NCBI RefSeq assembly: GCF_030848565.1
Contig: NZ_JAVDDV010000004.1
Location: 186,001 to 250,000 of the forward strand
DNA: 64,000 nucleotides
Source of the DNA: Natronolimnohabitans sp. A-GB9
Lineage (GTDB): Archaea > Halobacteriota > Halobacteria > Halobacteriales > Natrialbaceae
Reading direction: 5' to 3'
Notes under the pieces: generated by a model
Seen by the model: only the letters and a program-made list of their open reading frames with translations
Databases searched by the model: none
What the model was told of the DNA's origin: nothing
In this document: piece after piece, positions 2,616 through 10,621 of the stretch
How the letters are laid out: the number at the start of each line of letters is the position of its first letter
How positions within the stretch are numbered: position 1 is the first letter of the stretch
Program-made: the position numbers and the translations under genes

Positions 2616-4200
2616 CCTCCTCCCCGCGCTGAAGCGCGAGGATTCCTCCGTGGGTAATCCAGCCAGTTGATTACCCCGGCTGTGAACTTGCGGGTTTACT
2701 GACGCTGGGTTGGTCAAGCGAACGCGACTGTTCCCCAAAATCGGCAGGTATCCAGTCGTGTTCATTCCACTGCCAGTACGCCCCCTCACGAGGTGCGCCC
2801 CTGCCGCGTTCAGCAGACAGGGCAGCGGGCCGAGCCATCGACCCCACTTCTTGCTGCAAGATATTCCACGCGCCTGCCACGTCACTGTGGCCGTCTAATG
2901 CACAGTCGTGACACCGGAACAAATCGCCTCTCCGAGTCACATCGCAGCCCCCACACTCGGGACACTCACTGCTTGAGTCGGCTTCGCTCACTTCCACAAC
3001 AGCGATTCCAACATCACCTACGGTGAGTCGTATCCTGGTGAGGAGTTGCCGGTGTGACCAGAAATTGTGCGTCTTCTCGTTCACGTTAGCACTCCAATGC
3101 GTGTCCAACACATCGACCAAGTCGCCAACGTACACTGTGTCAACGTTGCGTTTAAGCAGCCATTCAGCAGCGTGTTTCACCGCCGCATCACGGCTGTGGT
3201 CACGACTCCGTGACCGCGCGTCGTACAGCCGCTTGATTCGATGGCTGGTGTACGCATCGTTTGGAAGCTCCGATTGGAGTGTAGCGATTCGCTCCGAATA
3301 GCTCTGGAACCGGTCGAACTCAGGGCGGGCGTGGTACACAGCAGTGTCACCGGACTCTGTGACGATAGCCAACGTGTTGTTTGCACCTACGTCGATTGCT
3401 GCTGATTGCGTCGTGTTCTCGGTGTCGAGTGTGTGAGTGAAGACATCCTGCCGCTGTTTTCTGCGTTTGTCTGGCTGAATGCGGACAGGGTGCTGGACAC
3501 GAAGCTGGTCAGCGTGTTCGTCGTAGATGAGTTCCAATCGGCTGTCGTCACCGTTCCACTGTGGGTTGCCGCGTACTTCGAGCGTGATGCGCTCTTGATA
3601 CTCGAAATTGTAGCGGTCTTCAAGCACGTTACCGACGCCAAATTCAAGCGTACTTTTGTCTTCGTCCCAGTCAAACGTGTAGAGGTCGTTACGGACGAGG
3701 CCGTGCAACTCGTAGCCATCGCTACGGTTGCCCCAGTAGCCCGGTGGTGAGGGGTTCTCGGTCACTGCTGGGGAAGACTCATCGTGGTACTGATCGAGCA
3801 ACTGAAAGTAACTGCGCCACGCTTCGCTATTCTTGCGAGCAATCTGCTGGCACGTCGCTTTCCCGACGATAGGTGCGTACTCGTCGTAGAGGTCGGTGTA
3901 CTCGGCGTCCCATACGTCACCATCATCACTGAAATACGCTTGTCGGCGTCGGTAGTTGATTTGATTCCAGAGTGACGGTTGGGCGGCCAGCCAATCGAAC
4001 AGACACTGCCGATACCTGTCGCTGGTTGCTTCGGCAGTATACGTATTCGTTCGTTGTGGCCGGTCGCTCACACTCACGTATATACAGTCAAATATCATAA
4101 ACTTTGGGATTACAGAGTACCTCAGTCACGTGGAAAGTGGTATATCATATCAGCTTCATTTCGCCCTAACGGGCGAGGCTTTCGCCTCGAATTTTCCGTA
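2612..4200 (-). mobile_element. IS200/IS605-group element of the tnpB-only (IS1341) type
   Basis: The element contains a single tnpB and no tnpA. The right end holds a GC hairpin (CGCGCT GA AGCGCG, 2625-2638) next to CCTCC and ends, read on the minus strand, in TCAA (2612-2615). TCAA is the right-end cleavage tetranucleotide known from IS608. On the other side, two small hairpins at 4162-4175 and 4174-4189 probably belong to the left end, so the left boundary near 4200 is approximate. The strand downstream of tnpB up to 2612 is where a right-end-derived guide RNA would be made; that is family knowledge, not shown here. Confidence 0.7.
2671..4098 (-). CDS. tnpB: TnpB-family RNA-guided nuclease with an altered RuvC-II site
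   Basis: A 475-residue TnpB, the family ancestral to Cas12. It has the RuvC-I Asp in AIDVGANN (D236), a four-Cys zinc finger (CPECGG at 379-384 and CHDC at 396-399), and a RuvC-III segment SDVAGAWNIL with Asp at 406. In the RuvC-II position, where TnpB proteins have E-D-L, this protein reads VYVGDL, with Gly325 in place of the catalytic Glu. The gene is otherwise full length with a normal basic middle region. It lies alone without tnpA. Whether it still cuts DNA is uncertain; an alternative Glu such as that in VNEKTH (about 341) cannot be excluded. Confidence 0.88.
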   Translation of the reverse strand: MIFDCIYVSVSDRPQRTNTYTAEATSDRYRQCLFDWLAAQPSLWNQINYRRRQAYFSDDGDVWDAEYTDLYDEYAPIVGKATCQQIARKNSEAWRSYFQLLDQYHDESSPAVTENPSPPGYWGNRSDGYELHGLVRNDLYTFDWDEDKSTLEFGVGNVLEDRYNFEYQERITLEVRGNPQWNGDDSRLELIYDEHADQLRVQHPVRIQPDKRRKQRQDVFTHTLDTENTTQSAAIDVGANNTLAIVTESGDTAVYHARPEFDRFQSYSERIATLQSELPNDAYTSHRIKRLYDARSRSRDHSRDAAVKHAAEWLLKRNVDTVYVGDLVDVLDTHWSANVNEKTHNFWSHRQLLTRIRLTVGDVGIAVVEVSEADSSSECPECGGCDVTRRGDLFRCHDCALDGHSDVAGAWNILQQEVGSMARPAALSAERGRGAPREGAYWQWNEHDWIPADFGEQSRSLDQPSVSKPASSQPG

Positions 4201-4480: not shown

Positions 4481-7400
4481 ATGCCTCGCAAGACACATCC
4501 GACGGCTGAACAGGCACTCAAATTCGGTGTTATTCTAGTAGCTATACTGTTATTTGCGAGCACAGCTTTCGTCGCCGGAGTCGGCGCTGTTGGAGATGTT
4601 CCGCCCGAAGAGGCCGACGGCCCTGAACTGCTCATCGAAACAAATATCGATAACGACCATGCGTGCACACATGACGAAGCCGACAACAGGACAGCGCTCG
4701 ATGCGGGTGACTCGCCCGAAGACGCCCCTGTTGTAACGGACGATCACGTCATCTGGAACGTCACCACCGACGGTGGCGAGGGATACGTGCAGTTCGATAA
4801 CACTGAGCACGATATTTACCCTGGCCTCGACTCGTGGGTCTTCTACTACGCTGACGCTGACCTAGAGCCCACCGACGGCGAGGTTCTGGAGACTGGAGAC
4901 GTGCCTGAGTGCGACCTCGACAGCTACGCCGAGGTAGAGACGCCCGAAGATGGCGTGTTCAACCTCCAGCTCACGAGCGACGAACACGATGACGGCGACG
5001 ACGCTGCCGGCGAAATCAGCGTCCAGGACGACATCAACGCTGACGACGAGAGTGTCGACGTGACGACGTCGGACTACACGGAGCTCACTGACGGGGTCGT
5101 GCTCGTCGAGGACGACCAGGGTAACGAGGAAACCTACGACTCAGTCGGCGAAGGCGAGACCCTCACCGTCGACATTGGCGACGCTGGGCTCGACCTCAAC
5201 GCCGGAGAGGACGTTACCGTAACGCTGTACGAAAGCGATACTCTGGAGAACGAACTCGACACCGACAGCACGACCGTCGACGAGGCCGTCGGTGATGAAA
5301 TCGAGGAGTTCGAGATCGTTGACCGCAGCACGGACGAGGTAGCTGCCTACGTCCACGGCGATCACTGGCACGGCGAACTCCCGCATGTCGACGAAGGAGA
5401 GCACATCTCGCTCGGTGCGAACATCGAGACCGCCGACGGCGAGGAAATCGACCTGAGCGGCGATGAATACTCGCTCGGTGTCGAACTCGCCGACGGTGCC
5501 GAAGACGGAGTCGTCTCATTCGACGAGCACGGTGACCACGTGCACATAGCGGGTGAGGAAGAAGGTCACACCGATGTCGTCTTCCAACTCGTCCACGACG
5601 ACCACGTCGACTACGAAACGCCCGCGATGGACGTAGAAGTCGAACATCACGACCACGACGATGGTGAGATCGAAGAGTTCGAAATCGTTGACCGCAGCAC
5701 GGATGAGGTAGCTGCCTACGTCCACGGCGATCACTGGCACGGCGAACTCCCACATGTCGACGAAGGAGAGCACATCTCGCTCGGTGCGAACATCGAGACC
5801 GCCGACGGTGAGGAAATCGACCTGAGCGGCGAGGAATACTCGCTCGGTGTCGAGCTCGCCGACGGTGCCGAAGACGGAGTCCTCTCCGTTGACGAGCATG
5901 GGGACCACGTACACATTGAGGGCGAATCGGAAGGCCACACTGACGTCGTCTTCCAGCTCGTCCACGACGACCACGTCGACTACGAAACGCCCGCTATCGA
6001 AGTGGCCGTTAGCGAGGACGACCACGCTGGCACCGGCATCGGTACGTTCGAACTTATCGATGCGGACACCGACGATGTTGTCGCCGACGTTCACGACGAC
6101 CACTGGCACGGTGAGCTTCCCGAACTGTACGGCGGCGAGCCCGTCGAACTCGACGTGTCCGCCGAGGACGCCGACGGCAACGAAATCGATATCGGCGACG
6201 AGTACGAGCTCGACGTCGCACTGGCAGATGAGTCCGACGAGGAACTCGTGAGCATCAACGAACGCGGCGACAGCGTTCTTCTGAGCGGCGCAGGCGACGG
6301 TCACGCTGACCTCGTCTTCCAACTCCACCACGACGACCACCTCGAGTACGAGACGCCGGCGATCACTGCCCAGGTAGACGTTCCTGCGGGTGTGAAATTC
6401 CTTGGAGAGGCAGACGTCGATCACGACCACGCTTGCTTCCACGGGGACTTCGACGAACGGACGCCCCTCGATTCGGCCGAGGCCCCTGCTGACGCGCCCG
6501 TCGTAGACGATACACACGTCATCTGGAACGTGACGTATGCAGACAGCGCCGGATACGTGTCCTTCGACGCTGATGGACACTGGTACGACGGTCCGTTCGT
6601 CTTCTATACGGCCGACGGATCTGCCGACCCCGTCGAAGCCGACGTCCTCGAGCGCGGTACGGTCGACAACTGTGCTACGCTCGACGAGTATATGGTGGTC
6701 GAGACGCCCGACGACGGAACGATCGACTTCCAGATCAGTGCGGACACAACTGCAAACGAGACGACTGCAGGACACGACTTCGCCGGCATCGTTTCGGATG
6801 ACGAGCCGCTTCCGGTGACTGCCGATGGGCTGACTGACGCCGACGGCAACGAAATCACCGACGGGAGTGCAACGATCCAGCTTACCCGTAACGGATCCGT
6901 CCTCGCATCGACTACTGGAGTCACCATCGAAGACGGCGAAATTTCCGACGCGACGATCGACACCGAAGCGATCGCCGACGACGTCGAATCCGGACCGGCG
7001 ACGGTCGAGATTGCGGGAGTCGAGACCGAGACTGAGGCTCAGGTCGAACTCGTCCACGAAGTGCACACCCTCGAAAACGAATTCACCACTAAATCGCTCC
7101 CACAGCCGGCGGCCCTACACACTGAATCGATAGACACGATCGACCGGTGGGACACCGCCAACCAGAGTTACGTCAGTCTCGGAGCACAGTACGGCGACGG
7201 TGATATTATCGCTAACCCGGATGACCTGCACCGCGGATTGTACATCGGGGCAGCAGATGATGCGAGACTCGGGTACGAATTTGAGACTGATAGCAGACCA
7301 GCTCCGAGTGACGCCCAACTCTCCAACGGATGGCACCTCGCAAGTTCCAACTTCGCAGTCGGTGAGGACGATGGAACTCGAACCCTTGACGAGGACTTGG

Positions 7401-7600
7401 TAAACATCGATCCGGCTGCCGCCGGTGTCACGGTCTTCGACGACCAGCAGCGGACGCAGCTAGACCCATCGGCATCGATCGCTGGGTTTGACACGTACTG
7501 GGTGTACGTCGACGATCCCGAGCGAACCGACCGTGGGATAGTCGGACCGAACTACGATCCAGTCGAGCGCTCGGCTATTCTCGACGGAACAGACGAATAA
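4481..7600 (+). CDS. Large secreted His-rich protein with two DHAC domains and three HGDHWHG repeats
   Basis: A 1039-residue exported protein. Residues 1-40 form a signal peptide or anchor (hydrophobic FGVILVAILLFASTAFVAGVGA). Domain order: DHAC domain 1 (about 48-165; NDHACTH, HVIWNV, PGLDSWVFY); an acidic linker with a small beta domain (166-270); three repeats of about 115-120 residues carrying DHWHGELP, HGDHVHI and VFQLVHDDH motifs (about 274-390, 397-512, 522-633); DHAC domain 2 (about 637-753; HDHACFH, WYDGPFVFYTADG); an Ig-like linker; and a C-terminal domain (about 870-1039) with LHRGLYIG and LSNGWHL motifs as in haloarchaeal surface proteins. Clustered His and Asp suggest divalent-metal binding outside the cell. 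I recall similar HGDHWHG repeats in secreted zinc-transport-associated proteins. Function is inferred. An in-frame TTG lies 30 bases before the chosen ATG. Confidence 0.75.
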   Translation: MPRKTHPTAEQALKFGVILVAILLFASTAFVAGVGAVGDVPPEEADGPELLIETNIDNDHACTHDEADNRTALDAGDSPEDAPVVTDDHVIWNVTTDGGEGYVQFDNTEHDIYPGLDSWVFYYADADLEPTDGEVLETGDVPECDLDSYAEVETPEDGVFNLQLTSDEHDDGDDAAGEISVQDDINADDESVDVTTSDYTELTDGVVLVEDDQGNEETYDSVGEGETLTVDIGDAGLDLNAGEDVTVTLYESDTLENELDTDSTTVDEAVGDEIEEFEIVDRSTDEVAAYVHGDHWHGELPHVDEGEHISLGANIETADGEEIDLSGDEYSLGVELADGAEDGVVSFDEHGDHVHIAGEEEGHTDVVFQLVHDDHVDYETPAMDVEVEHHDHDDGEIEEFEIVDRSTDEVAAYVHGDHWHGELPHVDEGEHISLGANIETADGEEIDLSGEEYSLGVELADGAEDGVLSVDEHGDHVHIEGESEGHTDVVFQLVHDDHVDYETPAIEVAVSEDDHAGTGIGTFELIDADTDDVVADVHDDHWHGELPELYGGEPVELDVSAEDADGNEIDIGDEYELDVALADESDEELVSINERGDSVLLSGAGDGHADLVFQLHHDDHLEYETPAITAQVDVPAGVKFLGEADVDHDHACFHGDFDERTPLDSAEAPADAPVVDDTHVIWNVTYADSAGYVSFDADGHWYDGPFVFYTADGSADPVEADVLERGTVDNCATLDEYMVVETPDDGTIDFQISADTTANETTAGHDFAGIVSDDEPLPVTADGLTDADGNEITDGSATIQLTRNGSVLASTTGVTIEDGEISDATIDTEAIADDVESGPATVEIAGVETETEAQVELVHEVHTLENEFTTKSLPQPAALHTESIDTIDRWDTANQSYVSLGAQYGDGDIIANPDDLHRGLYIGAADDARLGYEFETDSRPAPSDAQLSNGWHLASSNFAVGEDDGTRTLDEDLVNIDPAAAGVTVFDDQQRTQLDPSASIAGFDTYWVYVDDPERTDRGIVGPNYDPVERSAILDGTDE
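5306..6033 (+). repeat. Recent 369-bp tandem duplication inside the His-rich gene
   Basis: The coding sequence starting at 5306 (EFEIVDRSTDEV) recurs at 5675 with almost identical bases, a period of 369 bp (123 codons). A third, diverged copy starts near 6049. The first two differ mainly at silent positions and near the copy ends, so the duplication is recent or kept alike by gene conversion. Confidence 0.85.
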
Positions 7601-7628
7601 GCTAACCAAAGTTCTCACTCACATTTTC

Positions 7629-9326
7629 ATGAAGTACTTCAGAATACTCATCATTGCAATCGTGGTCGTATCCGTAGCCACAGCTGGTGGTATGACTGTT
7701 GCAGTCGCACAGGACGATCCACCGGGCCCACCGGCAAGTTTCTACGGTGAAGCCGTCGATGAAGATGGGAATGCTGCAGACAGTGATACGACAATCGTCG
7801 CTGTCGTTGAGGGAGAGGTTGAGGGACAGATTGCTGTCGAAACCGCAGGTGAGTACGGTGGCCCTGATACCTTCGACGAAAAACTCAGTCTTGACAGTGC
7901 TGCAGGTGACGAGGTATCGTTCCACGTCGAAGATGCATCCGGTCCGGAAGCTCTCGAGAGTCCGGTCGATCTAGACCCCGGACTGAGTGAACAAGACCTC
8001 ACGTTCCCAGCCGAGACGTTCGGCGACAGCCCGGACGACCCGGACAACGGCCATGATGGAGGCGATAGTGACAACGGTGATGACGCAGATGTAGGCTCTG
8101 GGACCGTCGAGTTCCTCATTGAAACAGACATCGATAACGATCATGCATGCACTCATGGGGAACACGACGAGCGCACACCGCTCGAAGCGGGCAATTCACC
8201 TGACGATGCACCTGTGGTTGTAAAAGATCACGTCATCTGGGAGGTTACCTACGAGGGTGACGAGGGATACATCCGGTTCGATAACAATGAGCACTCTAGT
8301 TACCCTGGCCTCGACTCGTGGGTTTTCTACCAGGCCGGTGCCGACTTGTCGCCCGCCGACGGAACCATTCTCGAAAGCGGTGACGTGGATGAGTGTCCGT
8401 CGCTTGATGGGTACATAGAAGTCGAGACGCCATCCGACGGGGTCTTCGATATAGAAGTTACCGAAGACGGTGATATCACAGGACCGGCCAACGACCGAGA
8501 AGACTACCAAGAGGACGAACAAGAAGAGGAAGAAAACGAAACGGATGACGAGGTAACCACCATTGAAGATGTCGCTTCGACGGTCGACGAGGCTGAACCA
8601 GATGGTGAGACGGAAATCGAGATCGATGAAGATGCTGCCGAGGCTGCCGAAAATATCACTGTCGATAGCGGTAATGAAACCGAGGGTGTCGAAGAGATTG
8701 TACTCGAAGGTGACGTAGAGTCAGTGAGCATCGAGGAGTTCACCGAGAATGACGAGGTCATCGAAACCACAGCGGAGTCAATCAAACAGGACATCATCGA
8801 CGATCTCGAAGAGGATGTCGTTGATAATGGTACCACAGACACCGACACGCCTGAGGTAACTGTCAGCACCGTTGCCCGAATCACCATCGGGGACGATGAT
8901 GGGGAAGACACACCTGCAGCCGTCACCATGAGTGTCGCTGCTGACGATATTAACGAGTCCGAGCAAACGAGCATCTTCCACCAAGCTGATGACGGTTGGG
9001 AAGAGCTTTCAACTGAGGTTGAAGAAGAAACTGACGAGGAGGTTATTTTCAGCGGCAAAACCAGTGGCTTCTCACTGTTTGCCGTCGCCGAGATCGAGGA
9101 CGAACATCGAGCAGACACAGAATCGGACCCAGACACTGAATCGGACCCAGATTCTGAACGGGACTCCCAACCCGAGTCTGAGCCTGAACCCGAAGAGGAA
9201 GAAGACGTTGAATCTGTCGATGAATCGGATGACTCGATATCAGGATTTGGTATGATGACTGCAGTTGGTGCGCTCCTTGTAGCGATTATCGCCCGCCATG
9301 GCTGGCGTTCGGCAGATCTGGAGTAG
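7629..9326 (+). CDS. Secreted DHAC-domain protein with PGF-CTERM-like anchor
   Basis: A 565-residue exported protein 28 bases downstream of the His-rich gene, probably the same operon. Residues 1-28 are a signal peptide (IIAIVVVSVATAGGM...VAVA). Next comes a carboxypeptidase-regulatory-like beta domain (FYGEAVDEDGNAADSDT), a DHAC domain at about 160-280 (NDHACTH, HVIWEV, PGLDSWVFY, second Cys in DECPSLD), a very acidic stretch, and a PGF-pre-PGF-type domain ending KTSGFSLFAVAE. A Ser/Asp/Glu/Pro spacer leads to the C-terminal SGFGMMTAVGALLVAIIA and a basic end. That C-terminus fits archaeosortase (ArtA) processing, although the usual PGF is SGF here. It is likely a cell-surface protein; what the DHAC domain binds is unknown. 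Confidence 0.75.
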   Translation: MKYFRILIIAIVVVSVATAGGMTVAVAQDDPPGPPASFYGEAVDEDGNAADSDTTIVAVVEGEVEGQIAVETAGEYGGPDTFDEKLSLDSAAGDEVSFHVEDASGPEALESPVDLDPGLSEQDLTFPAETFGDSPDDPDNGHDGGDSDNGDDADVGSGTVEFLIETDIDNDHACTHGEHDERTPLEAGNSPDDAPVVVKDHVIWEVTYEGDEGYIRFDNNEHSSYPGLDSWVFYQAGADLSPADGTILESGDVDECPSLDGYIEVETPSDGVFDIEVTEDGDITGPANDREDYQEDEQEEEENETDDEVTTIEDVASTVDEAEPDGETEIEIDEDAAEAAENITVDSGNETEGVEEIVLEGDVESVSIEEFTENDEVIETTAESIKQDIIDDLEEDVVDNGTTDTDTPEVTVSTVARITIGDDDGEDTPAAVTMSVAADDINESEQTSIFHQADDGWEELSTEVEEETDEEVIFSGKTSGFSLFAVAEIEDEHRADTESDPDTESDPDSERDSQPESEPEPEEEEDVESVDESDDSISGFGMMTAVGALLVAIIARHGWRSADLE

Positions 9327-9944
9327 AAAAAATTCGATTACGAGTGGGTCGTCGACGGCGGCGAACTGACCGGCGAACGAGTCGACGTCGTCGTCGACGA
9401 CTCCGGGGAGATCGATGTCGAGCTAACCGTCGAGAACGAGGTTGGAGAGACGGAGACGACACGCGAGTCGATCACCGTCGTCGAACCCTCCGACGCGACG
9501 TTCGAGGTGACCGACCTCGACGTGCCGTCGGAAGCGTCCCCGGCGTCGTCTCTCGACGTGGCGGCAACGATCACGAACACCGGGACGGATGACGGAACGA
9601 CGACGGTCACGTACGAGTTTGCCGGTGAGGTCGAGGAGGAGACGATCGATCTCGATGCCGGTACATCTCGGACGATCGAGTTCGATACGTCCGTGCCCGA
9701 CGATGAAGGCGAGTACCAGCACACGGTTTCCACACCTGACGACAGTGAGTCAGTGACGATCACGGTCGACGAAGCCGACGCGGGAGACGAAACGGAGCGA
9801 AGCGATGACGAAGCCGACGCGGGAGCAGACTCGGACGATTCCATCCCTGGGTTCGGTGTCGTAGCGACACTCGGTGCTGTCGGCGTCATCGTCGGGGTGA
9901 CGTATCTCCGACGGCAGCACTCGCACACTATCCACATCGAGTAG
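9327..9944 (+). pseudogene. 5'-truncated surface-protein gene (PKD end, CARDB-like domain, PGF-CTERM)
   Basis: The reading frame of the preceding gene continues without a break after its TAG stop (9324-9326). It encodes the end of a PKD-like domain (FDYEWVVDGGELTGE), a CARDB-like domain (LDVAATITNTGTDDGTTTV) and a second, canonical C-terminal anchor (DSIPGFGVVATLGAVGVIVGV). No start codon with a signal peptide is present; the first in-frame candidate (9507) lies inside the domain. The DNA from about 9340 is GC-rich like the host chromosome, unlike the gene before it. I read it as the tail of an older surface protein whose 5' part was replaced by the incoming island. Confidence 0.7.
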
Positions 9945-10081
9945 CGAACCGTCGTACGGTGTGGAAACTGTCGAGTTCGGTCATCGCTGCTTGCGTCCGC
10001 GCTGCTGACCGATACCGCTTCGATTCTCACTTCGGTTCTGTGCGGCAATCTCCTGGCGACAGATGCTGTTCGTCGCCGAAG

Positions 10082-10621
10082 CTACGATTCGCCGACCTCG
10101 AGTGTAATCAGTCCATCCTCGGGTTCGACCTCGACGTACTCATCGAGCGGTTCACAGTCGTCACCGACGTCGTCTCGCTCGAGTTCGGAGCCATCGCTGA
10201 CGACTGCCGTGCCATCTGCCGTATAGAACACGAACGGGCCATCGTACCAGTGTTCGTCGGCGTCGAAGCGCACGTAGCCGTGGTCCCCTTCGTACGTCAC
10301 CTCCCAGATGACGTGGGTCTCCTCGACCGTCGGCGCCTCGTCGCTCGTCTCACCGGCGGTCAGTGGCTCCCGGTCGTCGAATTTCGCGTGGCCGCAGGCG
10401 TGTTCGTGGTCGATCTCCTCCTCGGCGAGTAACTCGAGGGTCGCCGTGTCCGATTCCGAGCCGTTTCCGTCGTCGTCGTCGCTCGACTCCGAGGTATCGG
10501 TTTCGTCTGTCTCCTCCGCCGGAGCGTCATCGTCTCCGGTACAGCCAGCGATAGTAGCCATTGCAATGGCGGTAGCACTCGCCTTGAGCGCTTTCCGTCG
10601 GGAGAGTCGCGTATCTGTCAT
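10082..10621 (-). CDS. Tat-exported lipoprotein with a single DHAC domain
   Basis: A 179-residue lipoprotein. The N-terminus SRRKALKASATAIAMATIAGC has a twin-arginine motif and a lipobox whose Cys is at residue 27. An acidic Asp/Glu/Ser linker follows. The rest (about 63-179) is one DHAC domain with HEHACGH, HVIWEVTYEG, WYDGPFVFYTADG and the second Cys in GDDCEPLDEY. It is closest to the second DHAC domain of the 1039-residue protein. It faces the other DHAC genes from the opposite strand. Exposure on the outer membrane face is inferred from the signal; the ligand is unknown. Confidence 0.75.
   Translation of the reverse strand: MTDTRLSRRKALKASATAIAMATIAGCTGDDDAPAEETDETDTSESSDDDDGNGSESDTATLELLAEEEIDHEHACGHAKFDDREPLTAGETSDEAPTVEETHVIWEVTYEGDHGYVRFDADEHWYDGPFVFYTADGTAVVSDGSELERDDVGDDCEPLDEYVEVEPEDGLITLEVGES

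Follow-up and report, generated by a model that had tools for sequence, protein, structure and literature searches.

Known zinc-recruiting proteins and a haloarchaeal cluster that resembles them

Extracellular proteins that recruit zinc and load it onto ZnuA-type receptors are known in bacteria, and no archaeal counterpart was met in the literature searched. In PhtD, HxxHxH motifs bind Zn(II), which is then passed on to AdcAII (PMC3842936), and AdcA is itself a fusion of ZnuA and ZinT (PMC3842936, PMC7858048). ZepA is a bacterial zinc exoprotein of the zinc regulon which supports zinc uptake and is reported absent from Archaea; it has a signal peptide, a C-terminal sorting tail, an immunoglobulin-like (Ig-like) domain and the three-His motif H-X2-9-H-[FY]-H (PMC10957091). 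Here we describe a cluster of three genes from Natronolimnohabitans sp. A-GB9, located in a stretch of 64,000 nucleotides (contig NZ_JAVDDV010000004.1, positions 186,001 to 250,000), referred to as the window. Its exported products carry four copies of a domain of about 120 residues, DHAC. Judged from sequence, the DHAC system exists and is tied to metal uptake, and none of the family libraries searched contains it. We read the cluster, with a probability of roughly two in three, as the extracellular entry stage of an uptake system of zinc type in haloarchaea, feeding ZnuABC; that its proteins bind metal, that the metal is zinc, that it is transferred and that the genes are induced on starvation is what we infer.

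By their anatomy, the products of the window appear to resemble Pht, AdcA and ZepA. As in streptococcal Pht (PhtD/AdcAII, PF04270; PMC3842936), there is a surface protein with repeated HxxHxH, a gene that at related loci lies beside a ZnuA-like receptor and a shared promoter element that may reflect the kind of co-regulation with zinc uptake known for Pht. Unlike Pht, however, the repeats found here, named HWHG, are Ig-like domains of about 120 residues without a PF04270 match over the motif, DHAC has no Pht counterpart and the proteins are archaeal. The likeness to AdcA is that the receptor itself can carry an extra metal-recruiting domain, which is ZinT-like in AdcA, whereas DHAC or HWHG sits in the His-rich loop. 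The likeness to ZepA, by description only, extends to secretion with a signal peptide and a C-terminal tail, an Ig-like domain and His motifs, while insertion into a receptor, seen here, is not described for ZepA in the available part of that source (PMC10957091). Similarly to the periplasmic zinc metallochaperone AztD (PMC6689063), the window proteins would be extracytoplasmic proteins loading a zinc receptor, but DHAC and HWHG match no solved chain by sequence and AztD is absent among the fold matches listed. Finally, importers of the ZnuABC type (cluster A-I; PF01297, PF00950) are accompanied by DHAC genes and their receptor can contain DHAC, whereas the standard ZnuA has neither accessory module.

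Four copies of one domain in three exported proteins

A sequence-only reading of the window had claimed four copies of one unrecognised domain in three genes, and this was borne out. Copies 2, 3 and 4 are 49, 69 and 50% identical to copy 1, with 42 invariant columns in the four-copy alignment, and a whole-genome search with copy 3 retrieved the other three at E values of 2e-51 to 6e-30, which is far beyond chance. The same search found two extra copies on contig C1; together with the HWHG repeats and a shared promoter element, these go beyond what the earlier reading had noticed. Its division into two subtypes also holds, copies 1 and 3 carrying PGLDSWVFY and copies 2 and 4 carrying WYDGPFVFYTADG. 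Its motifs hold apart from two points: the D of the DHAC start motif is not invariant (EHAC in copy 4; HHAC, SHAC or AHAC in relatives), and the motif given as D-[ED]-R-x-[PA]-L begins D-[EDN]-R, as copy 1 has DNR.

The domain itself remains outside existing classifications. Profile searches at curated cut-offs gave no Pfam or NCBIfam match over it, and the DHAC profile matched no solved chain among PDB sequences, so no existing family stands against the proposed function. A Foldseek search of the PDB with the model returned no similar fold (best match E 0.11, TM-score about 0.3), and one of BFVD gave nothing significant.

DHAC lies inside or near ZnuA genes in 21 of 34 clusters

In four genomes (G096, G137, G247 and G389) DHAC lies inside a ZnuA open reading frame (ORF), between PF01297 pieces which meet near profile position 100. 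The G096 protein (L058) aligns with YcdH (2o1e) and AdcA (7jj8) on either side of the insert, which replaces the His-rich loop of both. An insertion of this kind makes the idea of recruitment and transfer testable within one polypeptide. The neighbours in other genomes, which the sequence-only reading had proposed to inspect, point the same way: of the 34 DHAC clusters, 21 (from 21 of 27 genomes) fall within a ZnuA ORF or at most 3 kb from one, where about 0.8% per cluster would be expected, an expectation that takes genomes singly with kinship among them uncorrected. In the genome studied here, at 163.8 kb of C1, a DHAC gene is followed by znuA with an HWHG insert, znuC and znuB (L057). The first copy in G032 is 92% identical to its window counterpart, and in that genome the genes for a lipoprotein, a large protein, an anchored protein, ZnuA and an ABC-3 permease form a single row. 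CobW genes occur near two DHAC loci, a ZIP transporter near one, and CbiM beside the Halorutilus cluster.

DHAC, HWHG and znuA genes share a promoter element

The upstream regions of DHAC, HWHG and znuA genes have in common the element TTATTAA-N11-ATAATAACAnTTTTAAACAA, which can be read as a TTATTA-N13-TAATAA palindrome directly adjoining a TATA-like TTTTAAAC. It is a compact candidate metal operator for haloarchaea. The window contains exactly two matches, before 4481 and before 10621, and none were expected in shuffles. Across the whole 4.3-Mb genome, with up to three mismatches, the sites comprised these two, one before a DHAC-rhodanese gene, one before znuA and one in an AAT-repeat tract, while the reversed pattern, as a control, gave no sites. 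Ranking 311 upstream regions with a matrix built from eight znuA upstreams placed just one unrelated gene among the best 23, the others being DHAC, HWHG and znuA genes and one cobW, with a second cobW at rank 25; these scores are approximate, as two of the eight training rows (znuA of L042 and L043) were misaligned and the training genes are in the ranked list. For the 26 other DHAC genomes, 19 of 26 element matches lay, by position, before DHAC or znuA genes, against four control matches, and class-wide the element was commoner in DHAC genomes (11/24 vs 5/338).

The occurrence of DHAC in or beside the zinc receptor in relatives, along with a promoter signal common to two window genes and the receptor gene, suggests a probable role for the window proteins in collecting extracellular zinc and delivering it to the importer. 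The earlier idea of an extracellular metal- or ligand-handling system is thus strengthened by the ZnuA insertion, the znuABC linkage and the shared element. In the mechanism we propose, the proteins would be displayed at the cell surface through different export routes and would capture scarce metal, most likely Zn(II), to be passed to ZnuA, the receptor of the ZnuABC importer. Certain relatives have DHAC or HWHG within ZnuA itself, where its His-rich loop would otherwise be. An operator next to the TATA box would place DHAC genes and znuA under common control, joined in some genomes by cobW, a metal GTPase gene, with induction on starvation. This would offer a function for secreted proteins lying outside all Pfam and NCBIfam models.

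Two side observations concern the element. It stands directly before an FAD-NAD(P)-binding gene in L102, of a family also found beside cobW and recurring at cobW or DHAC loci (L102, L039:4408-5676, L046:1742-2980, L058:10870-12117). In L107 and L115 (1500-1533) it precedes P-loop protein genes, and the L107 protein ends in CNCRCHDGH, possibly a metal-binding tail.

A putative three-His site and a separate Cys pair in DHAC

In the numbering of copy 4, H13, H17 and H42 each occur in 51 of 52 DHAC copies and D21 in 50 of 52; the flanks of the copies vary. The predicted model of copy 4 (predicted local distance difference test, pLDDT, 95.6; predicted TM-score, pTM, 0.89), from which we propose a beta-rich fold with one helix, has residues 11-20 helical and H42 leading into strand 44-48. 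H13 and H17 lie one turn apart on the same face of the helix, and C15 points away, about 160-200 degrees from them. The Cys pair is kept in nearly all copies, C15 and C95 being 80 residues apart without a CxxC. All three His are gone from a rhodanese fusion (L051), and H13, H17 and D21 from a Halorutilus copy (L008:8282-8695), both with the two Cys kept; conversely, three copies without both Cys (the second DHAC of the large protein in L039, L040 and L041) keep all His. These Cys-less copies form one clade and therefore count as one loss event, not three.

From the secondary structure and their joint loss, the three His may be expected to converge, so that H13, H17 and H42, possibly with D21, look like the ligands of a metal site. 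As the Cys disappeared together from a clade in which the His are intact, they probably form a disulphide, separate from the site, which would stabilise the domain. The label of a Cys/His domain thus stands for the His and not for the Cys as ligands. A single joint site of Cys and His was rejected, since the two sets are lost independently and C15 faces away from H13/H17.

Many relatives have long Asp/His inserts in DHAC. In L027, L028, L029, L031, L032, L033, L054 and L057, Asp/His repeats of tens of residues lie inside or before the domain, their length differing by species.

HWHG repeats may add further metal sites

Between DHAC copies 1 and 2 the large protein P0001 has three Ig-like HWHG repeats (5288-6382). 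HGDHWH is found in all three and HGDHVH in two, and the model of repeat 1 (pLDDT 92.4) is Ig-like by Foldseek; the repeats may thus supply additional HxxHxH sites. HWHG occurs in 63 of 362 genomes, many times in receptor-sized ORFs, and in G033, G129 and G361 it is inside the receptor, the match falling between the two ZnuA pieces. Membership in PF04270 (Strep_his_triad) was considered and rejected, as the family does not match over the motif: one repeat alone gave a hit, at E 0.81 over 13 residues, scoring 10 against a cut-off of 27 bits.

With both domains named and their ligands explicitly predicted, a broader proposal can be made, on which we put even odds: DHAC and HWHG would be two undescribed metal-recruiting domains, DHAC having a new fold, and would together form an extracellular zinc-scavenging layer peculiar to haloarchaea. 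This layer would be controlled through an operator and a regulator of its own, would have arisen separately from Pht, ZinT, AztD and ZepA, and would at times have been taken up by the receptor.

Other explanations of the cluster

Several observations weigh against zinc capture for ZnuABC. Thirteen of the 34 clusters have no receptor gene nearby, and the window cluster itself has none beside it. Some DHAC proteins are fused to rhodanese and lie beside PQQ-type propellers, with no obvious link to metal. Moreover, haloarchaeal YcdH/ZurAM are described as SirR-regulated Mn uptake transporters (PMC3600143), and the same architecture might therefore serve Mn(II), Ni(II) or Co(II) instead of zinc. 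The cobalt/nickel uptake genes of CbiM type adjoining the Halorutilus cluster, and the Mn and Fe binders among the PDB matches of the ZnuA family, would agree with this. Nevertheless, the receptor has a His-rich loop and, among solved structures, is matched best by YcdH and the zinc receptor AdcA, the predicted site is made of His only, the repeats carry HxxHxH, and cobW and, once, a ZIP transporter are nearby, so that we regard another metal as unlikely. It is improbable, too, that the proteins serve to hold toxic metal at the cell surface, as a buffer or a sink, rather than feed uptake: although the many His sites, the several copies per protein and per genome and the metal-laden brines that haloarchaea inhabit would suit this role, a promoter element in common with the importer's receptor gene and a domain inside the receptor fit supply, not detoxification.

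A purely structural role, with His conservation incidental to acidic haloarchaeal surface proteins, seems very improbable. P0001 is indeed large, acidic and exported, and the fold of its Ig-like repeats is similar to that of S-layer and adhesin domains, but three His nearly invariant over 52 copies with variable flanks, the receptor insertion and the shared promoter speak against it. We give hardly any credence to DHAC being a redox or thiol domain with an active Cys pair in an incidental metal setting. Such a role could explain why the Cys are nearly always kept, why there is a rhodanese fusion (PF00581) and why L051 retains the Cys without the three His; yet the three copies lacking both Cys keep all His, the Cys are far apart with no CxxC, and rhodanese is present in just four of the DHAC proteins read.

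Distribution of DHAC

DHAC was detected in 27 of 392 sampled genomes of the class (haloarchaea), from 18 of 86 genera. In a draw across the phylum, every genome found to carry it belonged to the same order, and scanning 84,980 species with a strict pattern returned three loci, in Halorutilus, in Halostagnicola and in a metagenome-assembled genome titled Euryarchaeota archaeon Ods04. Plasmids gave no match by tblastn to a DHAC of receptor type, and viral contigs no DHAC. With bacteria covered by the strict scan and the plasmids, DHAC is likely restricted to haloarchaea. Five genomes of one genus, matched at E 9e-5 to 9e-4 in a second class-wide search with a divergent profile, were taken as false, since the one inspected is a HAD-type phosphatase by sequence.

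The DHAC-rhodanese fusions are Tat (twin-arginine translocation) lipoproteins: G000 contig C1 at about 94.5 kb (L048:8119-9138), L049, L050 and L051. The first three adjoin a Tat-exported protein, which in L048 combines a PQQ-type beta-propeller, PKD and PGF-CTERM (Pfam).

Genes of the cluster and their surroundings

The three exported carriers proposed earlier were confirmed (Table 1). P0001 has an N-terminal signal-like segment and no Pfam family above cut-off in a profile search. P0002 has a PGF-pre-PGF domain (TIGR04213; score 28.5 bits, cut-off 28) and an SGFG-hydrophobic-R tail at its C-terminus, and P0003 a Tat signal with a lipobox (TIGR01409). P0002 begins 28 nt past P0001 and the promoter element is absent before it, so it is probably the second gene of one operon with P0001.

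Table 1. Features of the DHAC cluster in window coordinates
Feature	Position	Strand	Length (aa)	Description
Promoter element before P0001	4422-4456	+		24 nt upstream of start codon; pattern, 3 mismatches
P0001 gene	4481-7600	+	1039	Large exported protein (ORF and translation): DHAC copy 1, three HWHG Ig-like repeats, DHAC copy 2, C-terminal region without family
DHAC copy 1	4622-4987	+		PGLDSWVFY subtype; HACTH at 4658-4672
HWHG repeat 1	5288-5644	+		Ig-like; HxxHxH twice (HGDHWH, HGDHVH)
HWHG repeat 2	5657-6013	+		90% identical to repeat 1
HWHG repeat 3	6026-6382	+		First HxxHxH kept, second lost (RGDSVL)
DHAC copy 2	6392-6751	+		WYDGPFVFYTADG subtype; HACFH at 6428-6442
P0002 gene	7629-9326	+	565	ORF and translation: signal-like segment, DHAC copy 3, PGF-pre-PGF domain, C-terminal anchor
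DHAC copy 3	8106-8474	+		PGLDSWVFY subtype; HACTH at 8142-8156
P0003 gene	10082-10621	-	179	Tat lipoprotein with DHAC copy 4 (ORF and translation)
DHAC copy 4	10085-10438	-		WYDGPFVFYTADG subtype; numbering reference (H13, C15, H17, D21, H42, C95)
Promoter element before P0003	10646-10680	-		24 nt upstream of start codon; pattern, 2 mismatches

Just upstream of the cluster, on the minus strand (2671-4098), lies a gene for an IS605-type OrfB (TnpB-like) transposase. At 9339-9944 a CARDB-domain protein (PF07705 over 9507-9941) with a PGF-type tail survives as a remnant, seemingly missing its N-terminus.

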